From the NCBI GenBank assembly GCA_031285525.1, contig JAITWB010000025.1, positions 1 to 6,731 on the forward strand: a stretch of 6,731 nucleotides of DNA. The letters are read 5' to 3'. Numbering within the stretch: the first letter of the stretch is position 1; each line of letters begins with the position of its first letter. The translations under genes and the position numbers were made by a program. The notes below the pieces were generated by a model. The model saw only the letters and a program-made list of their open reading frames with translations. It had not been told where the DNA came from and made no database searches. Source of the DNA: Spirochaetaceae bacterium. Its GTDB lineage: Bacteria > Spirochaetota > Spirochaetia > Treponematales > Treponemataceae. Below, piece after piece: positions 1 to 6,731 of this stretch.

Positions 1-168
1 AACTACACCAGCGAAGGACGCCCTCTTGCTTCGATAGTGGGTACCGATGCGGTGTTGTCAGTGTTTACGCCGGAGGTACTGCGGGAGACTGCGGAGAAGT
101 ATCTGTCTACGGAGAATTATGTTAGGGCTTATTTGAAGCCAGAAGGGCAGGGAGCAGAGAGAAAGTAG
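1..168 (+). CDS. C-terminal end of a probable M16 (insulinase-like) zinc peptidase, 5' truncated
   Basis: The first reading frame is open from the window edge to a TAG at 166-168 and gives the last 55 residues of a protein. The segment TPEVLRETAEKYLSTENYV followed by RAYLKPEG resembles the extreme C-terminus of M16 metallopeptidases (PqqL/insulinase type). There a helix of the form 'TPEDIxxAAxKYL' precedes a strand 'NYVxVxLxPE'. In that family the zinc-binding HxxEH motif lies in the N-terminal domain, which is outside this window, so catalytic competence cannot be judged. The last residues (GQGAERK) are a polar tail. The gene is followed by a purine-rich stretch and a strong hairpin at 190-234 that probably ends its transcript. 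The family call rests on a short tail and is moderate; a different protein with a similar C-terminal helix cannot be excluded. Confidence 0.55.
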   Translation, partial: NYTSEGRPLASIVGTDAVLSVFTPEVLRETAEKYLSTENYVRAYLKPEGQGAERK

Positions 169-189
169 AAAAGAGAAGGTAGAAGTGAG

Positions 190-234
190 CAAAGAGCACA
201 TATCAGGGCAATGTTCTCTGATATGTGCTCTTTG
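190..234 (+). terminator. Rho-independent terminator-like hairpin downstream of the peptidase gene
   Basis: A perfect 17-bp inverted repeat has arms 190-206 (CAAAGAGCACATATCAG) and 218-234 (CTGATATGTGCTCTTTG) around an 11-nt loop. A further G.T and G-C pair could close the loop to 7 nt. The right arm runs into a T-rich stretch (231-237, TTTGTTT), so the structure fits an intrinsic terminator for the gene ending at 168, though the U-tract is interrupted by one G. The left arm begins with AAAG, so the element could also act in the opposite direction. It separates the peptidase gene from the repeat array and ATPase. Confidence 0.7.
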
Positions 235-246
235 TTTAGGATAATT

Positions 247-374
247 CGTAAAAACGCAGTGATAATTGTCAAAAAGCTCGTAAAAACGTTGTAAATATTA
301 TTGATTTACTCTTAAAAACGCAGATTTTTTGCTTGAAAAGCTCGTAAAAACGTTGTATTCTTGTTGTATGTACA
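247..374. repeat. Four 32-bp-phased direct repeats (iteron-like array) in front of the ATPase gene
   Basis: The octamer TAAAAACG occurs at 249-256, 281-288, 313-320 and 345-352, exactly 32 bp apart each time, about three helical turns. Units start at 247, 279, 311 and 343. They alternate in type: units 1 and 3 read TAAAAACGCAG, while units 2 and 4 read GCTCGTAAAAACGTTGTA. This gives a 64-bp higher-order repeat with a perfect 22-nt match between 272-293 and 336-357. Three of the four cores are CGT-AAAA-ACG, a short dyad. The fourth unit lies between the candidate -35 and -10 boxes of the ATPase gene. The layout looks like a cooperative protein-binding array, possibly for autoregulation; the binding protein is unknown. 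Confidence 0.8.
333..361 (+). promoter_or_regulatory. Candidate sigma70-type promoter of the ATPase gene
   Basis: TTGAAA at 333-338 (5/6 to TTGACA) is followed by a 17-bp spacer and TATTCT at 356-361 (4/6 to TATAAT). The -10 ends 6 nt before the ATG at 368, so transcription would begin at or next to the start codon. Repeat unit 4 of the upstream array fills the spacer, so a protein bound there should block RNA polymerase. Inference from consensus and spacing only. Confidence 0.45.
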
Positions 375-1675
375 GAAAGGCTATGGATGCGCTCATTGCA
401 TGGAAAGACAGTTCTCGTCGGAAACCGCTTGTGTTAAAAGGGGCACGGCAGGTGGGCAAGACGTGGCTGATGCATGAATTTGCGAGAACGGCATATGATG
501 ATTCAGCATATATCAGCTTTGACAGGGATGCCGAGGCGGTTAGAATTTTTAACGATACAAAAGATCCTGGGTTGATTATAGAACGTTTGAGTTTGGTGCG
601 GGGTAAAACCATTTTACCCGAAAAGACGCTTATTATTTTGGATGAAATTCAGGAATGTCCGAATGCGCTGGGGAGTCTCAAATACTTTTACGAAGATGCA
701 CCGGAGTATCATATTGTTGCTGCAGGGAGCTTGCTTGGTACCTACCTTGCAAACCCGGTGAACTATCCTGTGGGAAAGGTGAATCTGCTTACCATCTATC
801 CATTGACTTTTGAGGAATACCTGGCTGCCGCCGATACTGGCATGTATCAGTATTATCATTCGATCCAATCGGGGAAAGACTATGTGTCCGCTTTTCACGG
901 TCTGATGATGGAACACTATAAAAAGTATCTGATTATTGGCGGAATGCCGGAATGTGTTCAGAGTTGGGTGAGTAATGCCGATCCCGAAGAAATCAATGCA
1001 ATACAAGAAGAACTTGTTTCCTTATATGAAAATGACTTCACGAAGCACTCAGGCAAGGTAAACGGCGGGCGTATACTGCAGGTGTTCCGCAGTATCGTTC
1101 CTCAACTTGCAAAAGAGAATAACGAAAAGTTTATGTATGCCGCCATCGCCAAGAGTGCGAGGGCGAAGGATTTTGAAGAGGCGATTGAGTGGTTGTTTTC
1201 CAGCGGCATCGCTTACCGCATTCTGAACGTATCAAAGAACGAATATCCCCTCAAAGCCTATGAAATGCTGAATTACTTTAAGCTCTTTCTGCTGGATGTG
1301 GGTCTCATAAAACACATGGCGCAACTTACCAACAAATCAATCCTGCTTTCCGATGCGTTTCGATTCAAGGGGCAATTGACTGAGAATTATGTTTTGGAGC
1401 AGCTCCTGCCGCTGCTTGACTATTCCCCTCATTATTACGCATATGCCCAGGATCGGGAAATAGACTTTATCATTCAAAGCGGCGAAGCGATTATCCCTAT
1501 TGAAGTAAAATCGGGGGAGAATAGAAACGCAGTTAGTTTCAAAGGGTATATCGAAAAACACAAGCCTGCAACCGCCGTTCGGTTCAGCACGAACGAGTAT
1601 TTGCAAAACGGCGCAATCACGAATATCCCGCTCTATTTTGTGGGTAAGTGGGTTGAGTTAACCCAAAAGGATTGA
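368..1675 (+). CDS. AAA-family ATPase with C-terminal DUF4143 (PD-(D/E)XK-like) domain
   Basis: A 435-residue protein of the widespread ATP-binding/DUF4143 family; its cellular role is not established. The N-terminal AAA_14-type domain has the conserved opening WKDSSRRKPLVLKGARQVGKTW with Walker A at residues 25-32 (GARQVGKT), Walker B at about 88-93 (LIILDE) and a sensor-like AAGSLLG at 118-124. The C-terminal part carries REIDF with D366, followed by EVK at 379-381. This D...ExK pattern is typical of PD-(D/E)XK nuclease folds, so both domains look intact. I chose ATG 368 over an in-frame TTG at 329 because family members usually begin MYRK and because a promoter-like -10 lies at 356-361. 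No Shine-Dalgarno precedes the ATG; instead the repeat array runs up to it. Sampled lines look lower in G+C than radA and the kinase, compatible with transfer. No signal peptide or membrane segment is seen. Confidence 0.9.
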   Translation: MYRKAMDALIAWKDSSRRKPLVLKGARQVGKTWLMHEFARTAYDDSAYISFDRDAEAVRIFNDTKDPGLIIERLSLVRGKTILPEKTLIILDEIQECPNALGSLKYFYEDAPEYHIVAAGSLLGTYLANPVNYPVGKVNLLTIYPLTFEEYLAAADTGMYQYYHSIQSGKDYVSAFHGLMMEHYKKYLIIGGMPECVQSWVSNADPEEINAIQEELVSLYENDFTKHSGKVNGGRILQVFRSIVPQLAKENNEKFMYAAIAKSARAKDFEEAIEWLFSSGIAYRILNVSKNEYPLKAYEMLNYFKLFLLDVGLIKHMAQLTNKSILLSDAFRFKGQLTENYVLEQLLPLLDYSPHYYAYAQDREIDFIIQSGEAIIPIEVKSGENRNAVSFKGYIEKHKPATAVRFSTNEYLQNGAITNIPLYFVGKWVELTQKD

Positions 1676-1680
1676 TCCTT
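1667..1680. terminator. Weak bidirectional terminator-like palindrome between convergent ATPase and radA
   Basis: AAGGATTGATCCTT is a near-perfect palindrome spanning the ATPase stop codon (1673-1675). It can form a 5-bp stem with a TTGA loop. On the plus strand it is followed by ACTTTTC, and on the minus strand by TTTTGGG. This is the only hairpin seen between the two convergent genes (their stops are 43 nt apart), but it is short and weak. Confidence 0.3.
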
Positions 1681-1718
1681 ACTTTTCTCCCTTTTACCTT
1701 CTCCTTTCTCTTTGATTT

Positions 1719-3071
1719 TCACCCCTTCCCAAAGAGCTTACCAATCGTCTCCTTAATATTCCGCACGCAATGAATGCCCTCTCCGTCCTCCGGGGCATAC
1801 ACGTGGGAAAACCCTAAGCTCTTTGCTGTTTTTGCCCGCTGCCGTATCCGTCCTACGGGGCGTACTTCCCCGGCGAGGCTGAGTTCCCCTACGAGTACAG
1901 TGGCTTCCGGGAGGGCCATGTCTGTGCGGGCGGAGTAGAGGGCGGCGGCGAGGGCGAGGTCGGCGGCGCTTTCGGTGATCCGGACGCCTCCGGCGACGTT
2001 TATGTAGAGATCCTGGTCGGAGAAGCGGAGTCCTAGCCGTTTTTCGAGGACCGCTGCGACTCTGCTGACCCGGGCGGTGTTGATTTGATCCGAGTAGACC
2101 CGTGTTACTGCGGCTTTGGCAGGGACGGTGAGGGCTTGTATTTCTACCATGAATACCCGGCTGCCTTCAAAGACGGGGACGACGGCGACACCCGGGGGAA
2201 GTGCGCCGCTTCGGCGGATGATGAACATGGAAGAGGGGTCTTCTACGGGGAGTAAGCCCTTTTCGCCCATGGAGAATATGCCCAGTTCGTCAACCGAACC
2301 AAAGCGGTTCTTTCTTGCCCGGAGGAAGCGTACTTCGTCATCGTTCCGTTCGAAGGAGATGACCGTGTCTACAATGTGCTCCAGCGCCTTGGGGCCGGCG
2401 ATGAGGCCTTCTTTTGTTACATGGGCGACGAGGAAGAGTACGGAGTCCCGTTCCTTTACCCAGGAGATAAGCTCATGGGCGGCGTATTTGAGCTGGTTTA
2501 TGGTTCCCGGCACCTGTCCTGCGTCGGGGGTGTAGACGGTTTGGATGGAATCGACGATGACGAATACGGGAGAGACGGAGTTGAGGGCTGAGTCTATGTC
2601 TTCAAGCCGGGAGGTGCAGAGGATTTCGATGTTGCTGTAGTTCAGACAAAGCCTGTCTGCCCGGCTCCGTATCTGTGCAGCCGACTCTTCCCCTGAGACA
2701 TAGAGGATACGTCCTTTGGTCTGTATGGCGGCGGCGGTTTGCAAGAGAAGCGTCGATTTGCCGATACCCGGCTCCCCGCCGATGAGTATGGCGGATCTGC
2801 GCATGGCTCCTCCGCCGAGTACCCGGTCCAGCTCTCCGATGCCGGTGGAGAGCCGCTCTCCGTCCATGGGATTGACTGTGTTGAGAGGGACGGGTTTTGC
2901 TGCAACCCCCTTTTTGCTTTCCCCAAAGAGGGGGGCTGAGGGGGAGGAGACTATCTCTTCAAAGGAGTTCCATTCCCCGCATTCGGGACATCTGCCGAGC
3001 CATGCAGGCTGGGTATAACCGCAGGAGGAGCACTTATAGGTGAGGGTTCCGCTTTTTTTCTTGGCTGCCAT
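1719..3071 (-). CDS. radA: DNA repair protein RadA (Sms)
   Basis: RadA is a cytoplasmic RecA-like ATPase and DNA helicase that helps process recombination intermediates by extending branch migration with RecA. The 450-residue length is normal for the family. Domains in order are: an N-terminal four-cysteine zinc finger (C14-C17 and C28-C31, within CSSCGY and CPECGEW); a RecA-type ATPase core with Walker A at 98-107 (GGEPGIGKST) and Walker B around 171-178 (VIVDSIQT); the RadA signature KNRFG at 254-258; and a C-terminal Lon-protease-like domain ending GKLFGKG. All key residues are present, so the protein should be functional. The ATG at 3071 is the only start that leaves the zinc finger intact with a normal lead. 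No Shine-Dalgarno is visible; a good extended -10 promoter ends 7 nt before it. It is transcribed leftwards, convergent with the ATPase, and appears monocistronic within the window. Confidence 0.97.
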   Translation of the reverse strand: MAAKKKSGTLTYKCSSCGYTQPAWLGRCPECGEWNSFEEIVSSPSAPLFGESKKGVAAKPVPLNTVNPMDGERLSTGIGELDRVLGGGAMRRSAILIGGEPGIGKSTLLLQTAAAIQTKGRILYVSGEESAAQIRSRADRLCLNYSNIEILCTSRLEDIDSALNSVSPVFVIVDSIQTVYTPDAGQVPGTINQLKYAAHELISWVKERDSVLFLVAHVTKEGLIAGPKALEHIVDTVISFERNDDEVRFLRARKNRFGSVDELGIFSMGEKGLLPVEDPSSMFIIRRSGALPPGVAVVPVFEGSRVFMVEIQALTVPAKAAVTRVYSDQINTARVSRVAAVLEKRLGLRFSDQDLYINVAGGVRITESAADLALAAALYSARTDMALPEATVLVGELSLAGEVRPVGRIRQRAKTAKSLGFSHVYAPEDGEGIHCVRNIKETIGKLFGKG

Positions 3072-3078
3072 GACGATG

Positions 3079-3106
3079 AGTATAACACAGATATACTATC
3101 CGTCAC
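3079..3106 (-). promoter_or_regulatory. Extended -10 promoter of radA
   Basis: On the minus strand, GTGACG (3106-3101; 4/6 to TTGACA) is separated by 16 bp from TATACT (3084-3079; 5/6 to TATAAT). A TGT directly before the -10 makes an extended -10 (TGTTATACT). Only 7 nt (CATCGTC) separate the -10 from the radA ATG, so the transcript should start at about the A of the ATG. This is consistent with the absence of any Shine-Dalgarno. Confidence 0.6.
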
Positions 3107-3153
3107 TAGAGAAATAAATAGTGAAGAATAATTTTGTCAGAGGAAAAAAGTGC

Positions 3154-3211
3154 TTTACGCTATATGTAGGCTTTTGCGGCATAGTTACCGGGATGTTTAC
3201 GCTGTATTTAG
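3154..3211. repeat. Pair of imperfect 16-bp direct repeats 42 bp apart
   Basis: TTTACGCTATATGTAG (3154-3169) and TTTACGCTGTATTTAG (3196-3211) match at 14 of 16 positions and start 42 bp apart, about four helical turns. They lie in the 213-bp non-coding region between the divergent radA and 84-aa genes, upstream of both promoters. They could be binding sites for one regulator on the same helix face. No known operator is recognised. Nothing else is evident in 3107-3153. Confidence 0.5.
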
Positions 3212-3242
3212 TGTTGCGCCTTTGATTTTCCAAAAAAAGGCT

Positions 3243-3275
3243 CCTCTGGACAGAACTATTTCCCAGAGGTATTAT
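3243..3275 (+). promoter_or_regulatory. Promoter of the 84-aa gene with an overlapping inverted repeat (operator candidate)
   Basis: TGGACA at 3247-3252 (5/6 to TTGACA), a 17-bp spacer and TATTAT at 3270-3275 (5/6 to TATAAT) form a good promoter ending 9 nt before the ATG at 3285. A perfect 7-bp inverted repeat, CCTCTGG (3243-3249) and CCAGAGG (3263-3269), overlaps the -35 and abuts the -10, as a repressor site would. The AGAGG in the right arm looks like a Shine-Dalgarno. However, it is 15 nt from the ATG, and if this promoter is used it would lie upstream of the transcript start. Confidence 0.45.
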
Positions 3276-3284
3276 GAATGAACC

Positions 3285-3539
3285 ATGAGCAGCGCTGAAT
3301 TGTATGGCAGATTTGAAAAATCCCAAACCCATAGAAGACAAAAACAGGTAGAATCTGTCAAAAATTCAGCAGACGAATTCGTCATCCTCTTTCCCGGCAG
3401 TAACGGTCAGTGTGACAGTATTATCATTCAGGAAGACGGTATATTCAGAATAAATGACAATCTGATGCCCCTGCGTCCGGTTTTTAATGCTGATTTTAAA
3501 CAGTTGGTGGATTCCGTTTTGAAAGAACCGTCCCTATAA
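3285..3539 (+). CDS. Small protein of unknown function (84 aa)
   Basis: I do not recognise this protein. It is predicted to be soluble, with no signal peptide or membrane segment. The first ~25 residues are charged and probably helical (a RRQKQVESVKNSADEF stretch). A hydrophobic-strand-rich middle follows (FVILFPG, then CDSIIIQEDGIFRIND), and a helix near the end (FNADFKQLVDSVL). The alternation of strands and turns looks like a genuine small alpha/beta domain rather than a shadow frame, since nothing credible is encoded opposite it over most of its length. ATG 3285 is the in-frame start. Two nearer ATGs (3274, 3278) lead to stops after 4 and 6 codons. A plausible promoter ends 9 nt before the start. 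Its last 44 bases overlap the 3' end of the convergent HAD gene (3496-3539). It stands alone, so context gives no function. Confidence 0.65.
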   Translation: MSSAELYGRFEKSQTHRRQKQVESVKNSADEFVILFPGSNGQCDSIIIQEDGIFRINDNLMPLRPVFNADFKQLVDSVLKEPSL

Positions 3540-4299
3540 TCTCCGCAAATCCCGTTCCATAGCTCTCTTTTGATACCCATGCAGGCAGCCGTTTGATGTC
3601 CCGGAGCCAGCGTTCTATATTTGCCACGGCGCAGCTGTTGGGGAACCAGCTGAACATGGGTTCGTCGTTGAGGGCATCCCCGACGTACAAGACTTGTTCC
3701 CGGTTTTGAGCATCGTCGTATCCCATGAATCGTGAGAGAAAGAGCAGGGATGCTTCCCGTTTGTTGAAGTCCCCCAGCCAGGCGTTTACATGTATCGATG
3801 AGGGTTGGGCGGAACAGCCTTCTTCCTTAAAAATCTCGACTATTCTGCTGATATCATCTATTGAAAGGGGCGGGTTGACGGCTTCGCCGTAATCGATGGC
3901 GAAATCGTATAACCGCAAGAAGTTGTCCTGCGCCTCTCTGGCACGGGGGAGCTCTGCGAGGATGCGCTCTGCGGCCCGCCTGAGGGGCAGGCTCGTGTTA
4001 GGCTGGGCTCCGGGAAAGACAGTGGATTCTATGCGCTGTTCTTCGGTCATATAATAGGCGACGGCTCCGTTTTCGGTGATAACCCCTGCTACGGGCCATT
4101 CGTGGGAGAGCAGGCATCCCCATGCGGCGGCTCTCCCGGTGACCGCCAGTACGGGTAATCCCGCTTTTTTGAGATCCCAGAGGGCGGCATAGGCTTCGGG
4201 AAGGAGTTTTCCGTCTTTGGTGAGGGTATCGTCGATATCCGTGAGCACCCATCGGATGGATGAGGCTGTTTCTTCGGATATCTCGCTTATGGGGGTCAT
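3496..4299 (-). CDS. HAD-superfamily (Cof/IIB type) phosphatase
   Basis: A 267-residue cytoplasmic haloacid-dehalogenase hydrolase, expected to remove phosphate from a small sugar or metabolite phosphate through an aspartyl-phosphate intermediate. All four motifs are present: motif I DIDDTLT with nucleophile D21 and acid/base D23; motif II AVTGR with T54; motif III lysine K180 (NKREAS); and motif IV GDALNDEPMF with D208 and D212. The large insert between motifs II and III (after ITENGA, to about residue 175) marks a type-IIB cap, as in Cof, sucrose- or mannosyl-3-phosphoglycerate phosphatase relatives. The substrate cannot be read from sequence. Its ATG shares four bases with the TGA of the upstream mutT-like gene (ATGA), indicating translational coupling, and AAAGGA 11 nt upstream could serve as Shine-Dalgarno. 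The 3' end overlaps the convergent 84-aa gene by 44 nt. Confidence 0.9.
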   Translation of the reverse strand: MTPISEISEETASSIRWVLTDIDDTLTKDGKLLPEAYAALWDLKKAGLPVLAVTGRAAAWGCLLSHEWPVAGVITENGAVAYYMTEEQRIESTVFPGAQPNTSLPLRRAAERILAELPRAREAQDNFLRLYDFAIDYGEAVNPPLSIDDISRIVEIFKEEGCSAQPSSIHVNAWLGDFNKREASLLFLSRFMGYDDAQNREQVLYVGDALNDEPMFSWFPNSCAVANIERWLRDIKRLPAWVSKESYGTGFAEIIGTVLSKRNPPTV

Positions 4300-4706
4300 G
4301 CTTCGGGTTTTCCTTTGTGTTTGTTGTATGTGAGCATTTCTGCGATAGGCTCGTCAGCGGGGGCAAAGAGGAAGTCTTTCATTTCCTGCGCCGATACCCA
4401 GCGTATTTCGTCGTGATCCCTGAGGGTAAACTTGCCGCCCAAAAGCACCGCCTGTACAGCTATAAGGTGTACAACCTTTCCGTTGCCGTAGTCGTGGGTG
4501 TTTTCGCAGAGTACCGGACCTGCTTCGATATGGATATCCATTTCTTCTTGCAGTTCCCGTACCGCACATTGGGCAGGGGTTTCTCCGTGTTCTATCTTTC
4601 CTCCGGGAAATTCCCAGTATCCCCCCATGGTAATCTCGGGACGGCGGCGGGCGATGAGAATCCGGCCTTCCCTGTTTGCCAGAACAGCTGCAGCGACCTC
4701 TATCAT
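4296..4706 (-). CDS. mutT: MutT-like Nudix hydrolase (probable 8-oxo-dGTP diphosphatase)
   Basis: A 136-residue Nudix protein that likely hydrolyses oxidised nucleoside triphosphates (8-oxo-dGTP to the monophosphate), preventing mutagenic incorporation. The sequence AAAVLANREGRILIARR, then GYWEFPGGKIEHGETP, is classic MutT. The Nudix box spans G36-I58 with E42, R50, E51, E54 and E55 all present. The usual glycine near its end is aspartate (D57), a substitution tolerated in many relatives. Length is close to E. coli MutT (~130 aa). ATG 4706 was chosen because family members start a few residues before this first strand. A longer in-frame version from a TTG at 4763 would run through a perfect -35 box. 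It is the first gene of a two-gene operon with the HAD phosphatase. Family-level substrate assignment is common but not certain; other Nudix pyrophosphatases look similar. Confidence 0.88.
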   Translation of the reverse strand: MIEVAAAVLANREGRILIARRRPEITMGGYWEFPGGKIEHGETPAQCAVRELQEEMDIHIEAGPVLCENTHDYGNGKVVHLIAVQAVLLGGKFTLRDHDEIRWVSAQEMKDFLFAPADEPIAEMLTYNKHKGKPEA

Positions 4707-4713
4707 GTCTCTT

Positions 4714-4742
4714 ATTGTCACCGCAAAAACAGCATCTGTCAA
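4714..4742 (-). promoter_or_regulatory. Promoter of the mutT-HAD operon
   Basis: On the minus strand a perfect -35 TTGACA (4742-4737) is followed by a 17-bp spacer and GACAAT (4719-4714; 4/6 to TATAAT). The -10 ends 7 nt before the ATG at 4706. The intervening AAGAGAC looks a little like a Shine-Dalgarno but sits only 1 nt from the ATG. A leaderless or near-leaderless transcript is the simpler reading. Confidence 0.6.
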
Positions 4743-4758
4743 CCTCAAAGCAAACGAA

Positions 4759-4802
4759 ACCAAACAACGGAGTATTGAATCTCATTTGCTCCGTTGATTG
4801 GT
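4759..4802. promoter_or_regulatory. Long inverted repeat in the mutT / histidine kinase divergent region (operator candidate)
   Basis: The arms ACCAAACAACGGAG (4759-4772) and CTCCGTTGATTGGT (4789-4802) pair at 13 of 14 positions with one A/A mismatch, separated by 16 nt. The element lies 16 bp upstream of the mutT -35 box and about 70 bp upstream of the kinase promoter. No T-tract follows on either strand, so a terminator is unlikely. A dimeric regulator site, or two half-sites about three turns apart, is the better guess. The regulator is unknown. Confidence 0.5.
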
Positions 4803-4870
4803 CAGCGAATCGGCTTTGACGGAACTGTTAGCAAGTTTATCAAACGAACGTGTCCGCTTCCAATCCTCAC

Positions 4871-4899
4871 TTGCCCCATCCCGCAATGCATATTAAAAT
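4871..4899 (+). promoter_or_regulatory. Candidate promoter of the histidine kinase gene
   Basis: TTGCCC (4871-4876; 4/6) is followed by a 17-bp spacer and TAAAAT (4894-4899; 5/6), ending 9 nt before the ATG at 4909. A second possibility is TTGACG (4816-4821), 16 bp, TATCAA (4838-4843), which would give a ~60-nt leader. The two cannot be separated by eye. Confidence 0.35.
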
Positions 4900-4908
4900 C
4901 AGATAGAT

Positions 4909-6731
4909 ATGAAAGAATACAGCATCGCCTCACGGCACATCCGGTCATTTCTGCTCCTCATCGCCCTGCCTGTACTGGTCTTCATGCTGGTGTCCGGGTA
5001 TATCTTCCGCAGGGAAATAGTCGAGATGACCGCTGCTCAACGGGAAGCGACCATAAGCAAAATAGCGGACAGCGTAAACGCCGAACTGGAGCGGATGTCT
5101 ATCGTGGCTTCCTCGCTGATACATAACCGCACCCTGATGAACCGCTCTCTGGAATATGCGGAGAGCGGATCCCTTGAGCAGCGCTATGAGATTTCCTTCA
5201 CTTTGGAAGAAATATTCAACACCTACTTTCGCCTCTCCAGACAGCTTGCGGCTTATTATCTCTTTTTCTCTGACCGCAGCGCCCCGGCTCCCTTTGTGTC
5301 CCGGAACTACTACGGCGGCGTAACCCTCTCTACGGAAGCTGCTGCGGAGTATTCAGAGCTTGCCGCCGCTGTGCCGGGGTCTGTGGTATTCCCGGACACC
5401 CTTGCGGCGGCTAAAGGCGGGCAGGCGATGGTAGCCCTCGCCGTGGCTCCGCCGGAGAGAAACAATTACGCCACTGGAGTGGGAACCCTGGTGGTCACCT
5501 TCGTCGTAAATGAACTGAACGACTTTATCCAGCAGAAACACGAAAGCCGCAGCGTACAATCGGCGGAATATATCTCCCACACCTTCCTCGTCGGAAGAAA
5601 CGGCATCATACTGGCGGCAGGAAATCCTGAAAGCGTGGGGCAGCCTTTTCACAGTATACACAGGACCTTCGGACGCTCCTATATTGTCATGCAAACCCCT
5701 ATCGACGCTTCCGGCTGGACCTTGGTCGAAGCGATAAACATCGGTTCCCTCACCCAGCGGGTCAACACCATCATATACATACTCAGCATTGCCATGATAC
5801 TCATTGTGCTCCTCTTCATCGGTTACAACACCCTCTTCTTCCGGCGCATCCTCAAGCCCCTGAACATTGTCATTTCCGAGATGGCTGCGGTAGGTAAAGG
5901 AGATTTCTCTGTACAGGTACCTGCCAGCTCCTTTGCGGAATTGAACAGGCTCAACGATTCATTCAACTTCATGGTTGCCGAAATCGGCTCCCTCACCCAG
6001 GAGATAAAGAACGAACAGAAGGAGCGGCTCAAGACTGAAATCGACGTGCTCCGCTATCAGCTGAACCCCCATTTCCTCTGCAACACCCTCAACGCCATAC
6101 GGATGATGGCGCTTATCACGAAAAACGACGCCATACGGAAGATGAGCACCGCATTGATGACCATCACCGAGGACACACTGGGAAGGGAAGACACGGTCTG
6201 TTCTTTGGAGCGTGAACTGCGGAATCTGGACAGTTATGTCTACATAATGAAAGTACGCTACGGGGACACCTTTGAGTTTATCCGGGACGTAGACTCAAGC
6301 CTGCTTTCCTTAGGGATACCCTCCATGATCCTCCAGCCCCTGGTGGAAAACGCAATCCTCCACGGCTTCCGGGGGCTTGCCCGTCCCGGCTTGTCAGGTC
6401 ATCCGGGCAAACCCGGAACCATCGTCGTCTCCGCCTCCCTCGTTGATGGGTTTTGCAGAGAGGGCACCCTCTCCGAGGGCTCCCTCAGCGAAAACGCCCT
6501 TTCTATCGAAGTGCGGGACGACGGACAGGGCATGAGCGGGGAAGTTCTGGAAGGACTCTTCCAGAACGGAATCCACACAGAAAAGGGCTTCACCAAAATT
6601 GGGCTTTCTGCGGTACGGCGGCGGATTCAGCTCTCCTACGGCTCTCCCTATACGGTCACCGTCACCAGCTATCCCGGTGACGGAACCGCAGTAACCCTGC
6701 TCCTGCCCATCCTTGAAGCTTCCGAATACGA
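4909..6731 (+). CDS. YesM/LytS-type sensor histidine kinase, 3' end beyond the window
   Basis: An inner-membrane two-component sensor; 607 codons are open to the window edge. TM1 is at about residues 14-33 and TM2 at about 288-305. Between them lies a ~250-residue extracytoplasmic sensor whose distal part (GRNGIILAAGNPESVGQPF, 229-247) resembles a Cache domain. Next come a HAMP domain (about 306-360), a short charged coiled linker, and a His_kinase (PF06580) motif QLNPHFLCNTLNAI with phospho-acceptor H388. The usual F in NPHFLFN is C here. The ATPase domain has the N box LQPLVENAILHG (N481), G1 DDGQGMS (538-543) and a G2-like GLSAVRRRI (565-573). An unusual insert of about 20-25 residues lies between N box and G1, ending in EGTLS-EGSLS-ENALS. 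Members of this class usually sit next to an AraC-type response regulator controlling carbohydrate uptake genes, expected just downstream. ATG 4909 fits the short cytoplasmic N-terminus; no clear Shine-Dalgarno precedes it. Confidence 0.93.
   Translation, partial: MKEYSIASRHIRSFLLLIALPVLVFMLVSGYIFRREIVEMTAAQREATISKIADSVNAELERMSIVASSLIHNRTLMNRSLEYAESGSLEQRYEISFTLEEIFNTYFRLSRQLAAYYLFFSDRSAPAPFVSRNYYGGVTLSTEAAAEYSELAAAVPGSVVFPDTLAAAKGGQAMVALAVAPPERNNYATGVGTLVVTFVVNELNDFIQQKHESRSVQSAEYISHTFLVGRNGIILAAGNPESVGQPFHSIHRTFGRSYIVMQTPIDASGWTLVEAINIGSLTQRVNTIIYILSIAMILIVLLFIGYNTLFFRRILKPLNIVISEMAAVGKGDFSVQVPASSFAELNRLNDSFNFMVAEIGSLTQEIKNEQKERLKTEIDVLRYQLNPHFLCNTLNAIRMMALITKNDAIRKMSTALMTITEDTLGREDTVCSLERELRNLDSYVYIMKVRYGDTFEFIRDVDSSLLSLGIPSMILQPLVENAILHGFRGLARPGLSGHPGKPGTIVVSASLVDGFCREGTLSEGSLSENALSIEVRDDGQGMSGEVLEGLFQNGIHTEKGFTKIGLSAVRRRIQLSYGSPYTVTVTSYPGDGTAVTLLLPILEASEY
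6460..6504 (+). repeat. Three tandem 15-bp units inside the kinase gene (EGTLS-EGSLS-ENALS)
   Basis: GAGGGCACCCTCTCC (6460-6474) and GAGGGCTCCCTCAGC (6475-6489) match at 12 of 15 positions. A more diverged third unit follows (6490-6504). They encode EGTLS, EGSLS and ENALS. The units also contain GAGGGnnCCCTC-like dyads, which could favour slippage. They form part of the extra segment between the N and G1 boxes of the ATP-binding domain. Confidence 0.6.

Follow-up and report, generated by a model that had tools for sequence, protein, structure and literature searches.

What is the role of a regular series of direct repeats lying immediately upstream of a single ATPase gene, and which protein reads it? 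This question is raised by a contig of a Spirochaetaceae bacterium (JAITWB010000025.1, assembly GCA_031285525.1), whose positions 1 to 6,731 were analyzed as a whole and are called the window here. Four copies of TAAAAACG were revealed on its + strand at 249, 281, 313 and 345, in steps of exactly 32 bp, in front of a gene encoding an ATPase with AAA_14 and DUF4143 domains (Table 1). The original prediction for this DNA was that binding to the array controls the ATPase gene directly and that the ATPase itself may be the binder. Sequence comparison of the locus with its relatives leads us to propose that each ATPase probably assembles as a phased oligomer on the array at its own promoter and represses itself.

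The array is present in the form in which it was predicted. By chance 0.22 copies of TAAAAACG are expected, and at least four were found in 0/200 dinucleotide shuffles; no further copy exists on either strand of the 6,731-nt window. The lag-32 score of the array (12) was matched at any lag of 15–60 by 0/3000 dinucleotide shuffles (p = 1/3001). Chance or AT-richness as the source of the arrays is ruled out by these shuffles together with 342 neighbouring-gene controls (see below). Unit 4 does lie between TTGAAA (333) and TATTCT (356); a second promoter-like pair was found at 218–245, with 0.5 pairs expected in all. The predicted 64-bp period held only in part: there is a 22-nt perfect match at this distance (272–293 and 336–357), but the alternation of two unit types is not a general feature. 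It is absent from orthologues, in which the upstream copies mostly have CGCAG and the promoter copy CGTG, and in the window it therefore looks like a local duplication. Tandem Repeats Finder did not report the window array, because its units are alike over only about half of the 32 bp.

Table 1. Coordinates of the repeat array, the promoter-like hexamers and the ATPase gene in the window
Feature	Position	Strand	Sequence or basis
Array unit 1	245..259	+	TTCGTAAAAACGCAG
Array unit 2	277..291	+	CTCGTAAAAACGTTG
Array unit 3	309..323	+	CTCTTAAAAACGCAG
Array unit 4	341..355	+	CTCGTAAAAACGTTG; within promoter spacer
-35-like hexamer TTGAAA	333..338	+	promoter scan; orthologues arranged alike
-10-like hexamer TATTCT, spacer 17	356..361	+	promoter scan; orthologues arranged alike
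AAA_14 + DUF4143 ATPase	368..1675	+	Pfam; PADLOC PDC-S01 full-length; proposed (candidate) array binder

Two findings had been named as telling against the prediction, namely absence of the array upstream of orthologues and paralogues, and a motif scattered over the genome without phasing or link to these genes; both were examined on relatives of the window gene. A genome scan gave 459 loci with a gene for a relative, of which the best 80 served as orthologues (loci are cited by L numbers). L006 and L016 have no upstream DNA and were left out, so that 79 genes were tested, the window and 78 loci. The best lag (15–60) was 32 in 58/79 and 33 in 9/79 upstream regions, i.e., 32/33 in 67/79, compared with 24/342 upstream regions of other genes of the same loci. 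In the shuffle test 18/342 of these controls were significant at some lag and 3/342 at 32/33, and two of these three are themselves DUF4143 ATPases, as identified by sequence. Four octamers at 32–33 bp were found in L017. In L014 (5770–5970) there are seven at exact 32-bp steps with nearly identical units, as if this array had lately been enlarged by tandem duplication. At the level of single units, steps of 31, 32, 33 and 34 bp occurred 4, 117, 80 and 2 times in 91 genes; these counts come from a search within about 31–34 bp and show the split between 32 and 33 bp but are no test of the period, and the choice of units was poor in some genes, such as L002, L005, L015 and L040.

A distant sample comprised 14 named plasmid-borne relatives (22–43% identical, picked from 65 records) and one viral relative. 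Periods of 33 bp in Segatella copri, Prevotella and Segatella hominis, of 32 bp in Criblamydia and of 22 bp in Rhizobium were each reached by 0/300 shuffles, and a 32-bp period in a Fusobacterium relative by 4/300. The viral relative, the only one found in viral contigs (33% identity), has no significant period upstream.

The ATPase starts at ATG 368, and this methionine is invariant in 19/19 aligned sequences. Its Pfam matches are AAA_14 and DUF4143 only, and PHROGs and NCBIfam searches gave no match. The PADLOC model PDLC04786 for PDC-S01, a single-gene phage-defence candidate, covers the protein over its full length (E value 5.2e-159; residues 1–429, profile 3–433 of 439). The Walker A residues G25, A26, R27, Q28, G30, K31 and T32 and the Walker B residues D92 and E93 are invariant in 35 sequences. 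So are E339, D366, E379 and K381, tentatively assigned as the catalytic acidic residues and ExK of a PD-(D/E)XK nuclease. The predicted fold is STAND-type, with nucleotide-binding, helical and winged-helix domains in order and a PD-(D/E)XK-like C-terminal domain. Foldseek placed two DNA-binding ATPases, Orc1 on DNA and MalT, at the top of its matches to the model, with low TM-scores; by sequence, no relative was found in PDB at E values up to 1. PDC-S01 is reported to rank fourth in frequency among the defences of all prokaryotes, with 9,986 archaeal and 29,494 bacterial genes in the survey concerned (PMC12988326, available part), and, in a rumen survey, to be the individual locus found most often (PMC13356809, available part). 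Most candidates of this sort await validation.

The position of the array relative to the promoter is also shared. Eight of the 83 genes with significant 32/33 arrays have no promoter-like pair. In 40 of the remaining 75 the last unit lies within the best sigma-70-like pair, compared with a mean of 28.1 after permutation of positions between genes (40 was reached in 2/2000 permutations); for strong promoter pairs the last unit lies inside in 33/44 (permuted mean 21.5, 0/2000). This overlap supports the predicted control of the ATPase gene by the array. TAnnTTTG is the promoter box of Bacteroidota, and in three Bacteroidota loci one unit runs directly into it; in L218 this is the last unit, in L225 unit three of four and in L224 the first of three. 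On these few examples, the overlap seems to persist across promoter types. It should be mentioned that the -10-like box of the window ends 6 nt before the conserved ATG (356–368), so its mRNA would be leaderless; L013 (upstream of 6001) is alike, whereas in L003, L005 and other orthologues the distance is about 50 nt and includes a GGAGG-like site.

The same arrangement could serve activation, the ATPase binding its operator as an activator or two-way switch in the manner of MalT, with the upstream units helping to recruit polymerase. Several units indeed lie upstream of the promoter, and the structural matches of the ATPase model include MalT, a transcription-activating STAND protein (PMC4381067, available part). 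The last unit, however, sits between -35 and -10 boxes that in many cases come close to the consensus and have a normal spacer length, which suits exclusion of the polymerase better, and we regard activation as unlikely.

The spaced motif is private to this gene in the genomes searched. Seven whole genomes of orthologue carriers were scanned for the pair TAAAAACG-N24-TAAAAACG, which was found in six of them, with 14/14 sites within the array of this gene and none at any other; the genome of L003 has no such pair because its middle copy differs, and the reversed control pattern occurred once. The motif is thus not scattered over these genomes without phasing or link to the gene. For 12 close genes whose arrays are significant, namely that of the window and those of 11 loci from termite-gut metagenome-assembled genomes (MAGs) labelled Bacillota or Deltaproteobacteria, a repeated 6-mer is shared within 66/66 pairs. 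Using a host map compiled by hand, in which unmapped loci count as separate hosts, we found shared repeated 6-mers in 482/583 different-host pairs at identities of at least 70% and in 8/32 pairs of same-genome paralogues, in the latter mostly via A-rich words. Distances between motifs and between proteins are positively correlated (Spearman 0.41; 0/999 permutations; 65 of 89 genes, kept after thinning at 85% identity).

Fifteen genomes carry from two to 21 DUF4143 matches each. In multi-copy genomes 34/71 testable genes have a periodic upstream region (p<0.01), 24 of them at 32/33; no P-loop gene was found in 19/90 loci, and 1/72 genes was dropped for its short upstream region. Ten of the 71 are orthologues already counted (nine significant). 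Among the 61 paralogues that remain, 25 are periodic (p<0.01), 15 at 32/33, and their motifs mostly differ from that of the window. The array is found upstream of most orthologues; many paralogues have one too, in most cases with another motif. An observation of a different kind is L147, a DUF4143-type frame of only 183 aa that has kept a strong 33-bp array; perhaps its gene is broken and its operator intact.

These comparisons bear on the alternative that a host transcription factor binds the arrays and that the ATPase is merely its target gene. An A-rich core such as AAAAATGTG is common to many units of the 32–33 bp clade, and one family of factors is conceivable. Paralogues within one genome nevertheless mostly differ in motif, orthologues in different phyla share one, and the paired motif stands at no other gene in the seven genomes; a host factor appears to us quite improbable.

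The spacing of the units follows the protein clade. One gene set, without genes of <220 bp usable upstream DNA and without repeats of one protein, holds 166 distinct genes and is enriched in relatives of the window gene; 95 of them are significant, 51 at lag 32, 32 at 33 and 12 elsewhere. Other types were called in three sets of 30, with one short row dropped from each. C-type genes have a period of 39–41 bp in 11/29 cases (15/29 significant at some lag, 14/29 not), and a period of 22–23 bp or its double was found in the four best-scoring of 29 B-type genes (6/29 significant, 23/29 not). The YIKRHIE-type group has no consistent period (2/10 at p<0.01, lags 27 and 49). On a tree of 236 proteins with 109 labelled rows, the spacing classes (32–33, 22–23 and 39–41 bp) need three changes, the minimum being two; shuffled labels need 20.3 changes and were as low as three in 0/200 cases. 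The tree was built with FastTree, has long branches and was used for clustering only. That the array is general to all DUF4143 genes had to be rejected, since many distant relatives have no detectable array. As a separate observation, the C-type relatives L250, L251 and L289 have a 51-bp period with the repeated word TTATTCTTGCA upstream of the ATPase.

Array and gene are inherited together and occur in different phyla with no neighbour that is widely in common. When the window is compared with its closest orthologues, DNA similarity starts at the array or the ATG and stops near the stop codon. In a comparison of 34 loci (331 open reading frames (ORFs) of at least 80 aa), the most widely shared neighbour was a Nudix gene, present in 4/34; other neighbour families were common to 2/34 loci, and one antisense frame to 4/34. 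The window RadA is up to 74% identical to RadA of 291 sampled Treponematales, so that its host probably belongs to this order, whereas the window ATPase is up to 56% identical to those of Treponematales and 87% identical to that of a MAG labelled Deltaproteobacteria. This points to horizontal transfer. Two cautions apply: MAGs may carry wrong labels, and the Nudix gene as a shared neighbour (window 4299–4763, and near the ATPase in the three Treponema loci L027, L029 and L060) hints at an old Treponema locus. The plasmid collection holds no DNA nearly identical to the window.

Mobility suggests a further alternative, in which the array is a recognition site for gene movement or replication, iteron-like or end-like, and no operator. 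Array and gene are indeed what the hosts share, and in the window a purine-rich inverted repeat of 28 nt (86% complementary; 167–194 and 1682–1709) flanks both, possibly as the borders of a transferred piece, possibly as a repeated spacer. But the repeats lie on one side of the gene only and are tied to its promoter; in the window and L001–L017 the octamer forms no second array downstream and occurs there only as scattered single copies; and the comparison of 34 loci revealed no conserved ends, which were not searched for further. We therefore consider such a site very unlikely. A passive upstream element in which phased A-tracts merely bend the DNA is the least probable explanation of all, for although many units have A-tracts at near-integral helical turns, several paralogue units (L122, L147 and L156) have no A-tract of five or more, and the words shared at lags 32/33 reach beyond the A-runs.

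Two further features of the window were noted. An inverted repeat (190–234) with perfect 17-bp arms around an 11-nt loop stands between the end of the upstream gene and the array and was not listed by a terminator scan of the window. A frame of 84 aa at 3285–3539 has no Pfam or NCBIfam match, and an Rfam scan of the window gave no family at gathering score.

We return to self-repression by the ATPase. That the array moves with one gene between unrelated bacteria suggests a protein which binds there to switch the gene that encodes it. Such a binder would be expected to accompany the array, to alter its specificity along with the ATPase and to hold the spacing constant, and among linked genes the ATPase is the only candidate found. 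The proposal that it is the binder is supported indirectly, in that the loci compared share no other gene widely and motifs diverge as the proteins do. In this scheme the array would act as operator for the ATPase gene and would be bound by the ATPase, perhaps through the modelled winged helix, a natural candidate for the DNA-binding part. Units of about 15 nt spaced about three helical turns apart would align the protomers on one face of the DNA and allow cooperative assembly. With the last unit inside the promoter, the assembled ATPase would exclude RNA polymerase, and a trigger such as phage infection may relieve repression by altering the nucleotide state of the protein or titrating it. 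Each lineage would keep the geometry of its oligomer while the DNA address diverges, so that many paralogues could live in one genome with little cross-talk, and the array with its one gene would form a self-contained transferable unit.

Several observations weigh against this scheme. The winged helix of STAND proteins usually does not bind DNA. Among close orthologues, L004 lacks the array and that of L012 is degenerate. Nine of the 15 distant relatives have no significant period, although units 32–33 bp apart can be read by eye in two of the nine (L218 and L219), and 8/10 more distant plasmid-borne B- and C-type genes have none either, the other two being significant at 22 and 51 bp. At the identity level of the paralogues, motifs are shared about alike by different-host pairs (967/2583) and by the 8/32 same-genome pairs. 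Sharing is uneven with identity, at 28% for 38–45% and 36% for 30–38%. A sliding-window comparison of motif and protein-region distances, made to find the part of the protein that tracks the motif, gave only a weak peak at residues 151–180, which was not used.

If the ATPase binds the array, an address that diverges while the geometry stays fixed would account for the coexistence of many paralogues in one genome and for the passage of a single gene between phyla with its regulation in place. A bolder version, which we think doubtful, sees the arrays as guard posts of a one-gene immune system: the ATPase-nuclease would be held as a silent ordered oligomer on its private array until disturbance by a phage frees the protein and opens the gene. 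The DUF4143 genes of one genome, up to 21 in number, would in that case encode mutually blind, self-addressed sentinels, the DNA address being their fast-evolving part and the oligomer geometry the slow one. A private operator recurring across phyla also offers a DNA ligand, an activation reporter and a computable signature for PDC-S01.

Iterons are helically phased direct repeats tied to the gene of one protein and to autoregulation, typically with two-turn spacing, compared with about three turns in the arrays of the window clade. The term iteron-like, used in the original prediction, fits the form of the repeats but does not describe their role: the seven window proteins scanned have no Rep-type Pfam match, and the gene linked to the array encodes AAA_14 and DUF4143. 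MalT acts at repeated sites on promoters and is an activator with a C-terminal helix-turn-helix of the LuxR type. It is a STAND ATPase that regulates transcription by activating it (PMC4381067, available part). The window ATPase has DUF4143 at its C-terminus instead, and self-binding to a private array is proposed for it. The match to the archaeal STAND-type ATPases PAB2304 (2qen) and SSO1545 (2fna) extends only to residue 319 and so leaves out most of the nuclease-like domain. No report of such arrays was found in the literature searched, which did not cover most subscription journals and preprints; the available parts of PMC12988326 and PMC13356809 mention no operators or arrays of PDC-S01, and "autoregul" and "repeats upstream" are absent from PMC12988326. 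A regulatory parallel is RptR, which represses a defence promoter via three direct repeats overlapping the -10 box (PMC12255303, available part). As described there, RptR is a separate 9-kDa repressor whose 9-bp repeats have a palindromic core; it is no ATPase that controls the gene encoding it, and no gene for an RptR-like repressor was found as a widely shared neighbour of the array in the 34 loci (ORFs of at least 80 aa). RptR provides a precedent, with a separate protein, for the repression of defence genes via direct repeats.
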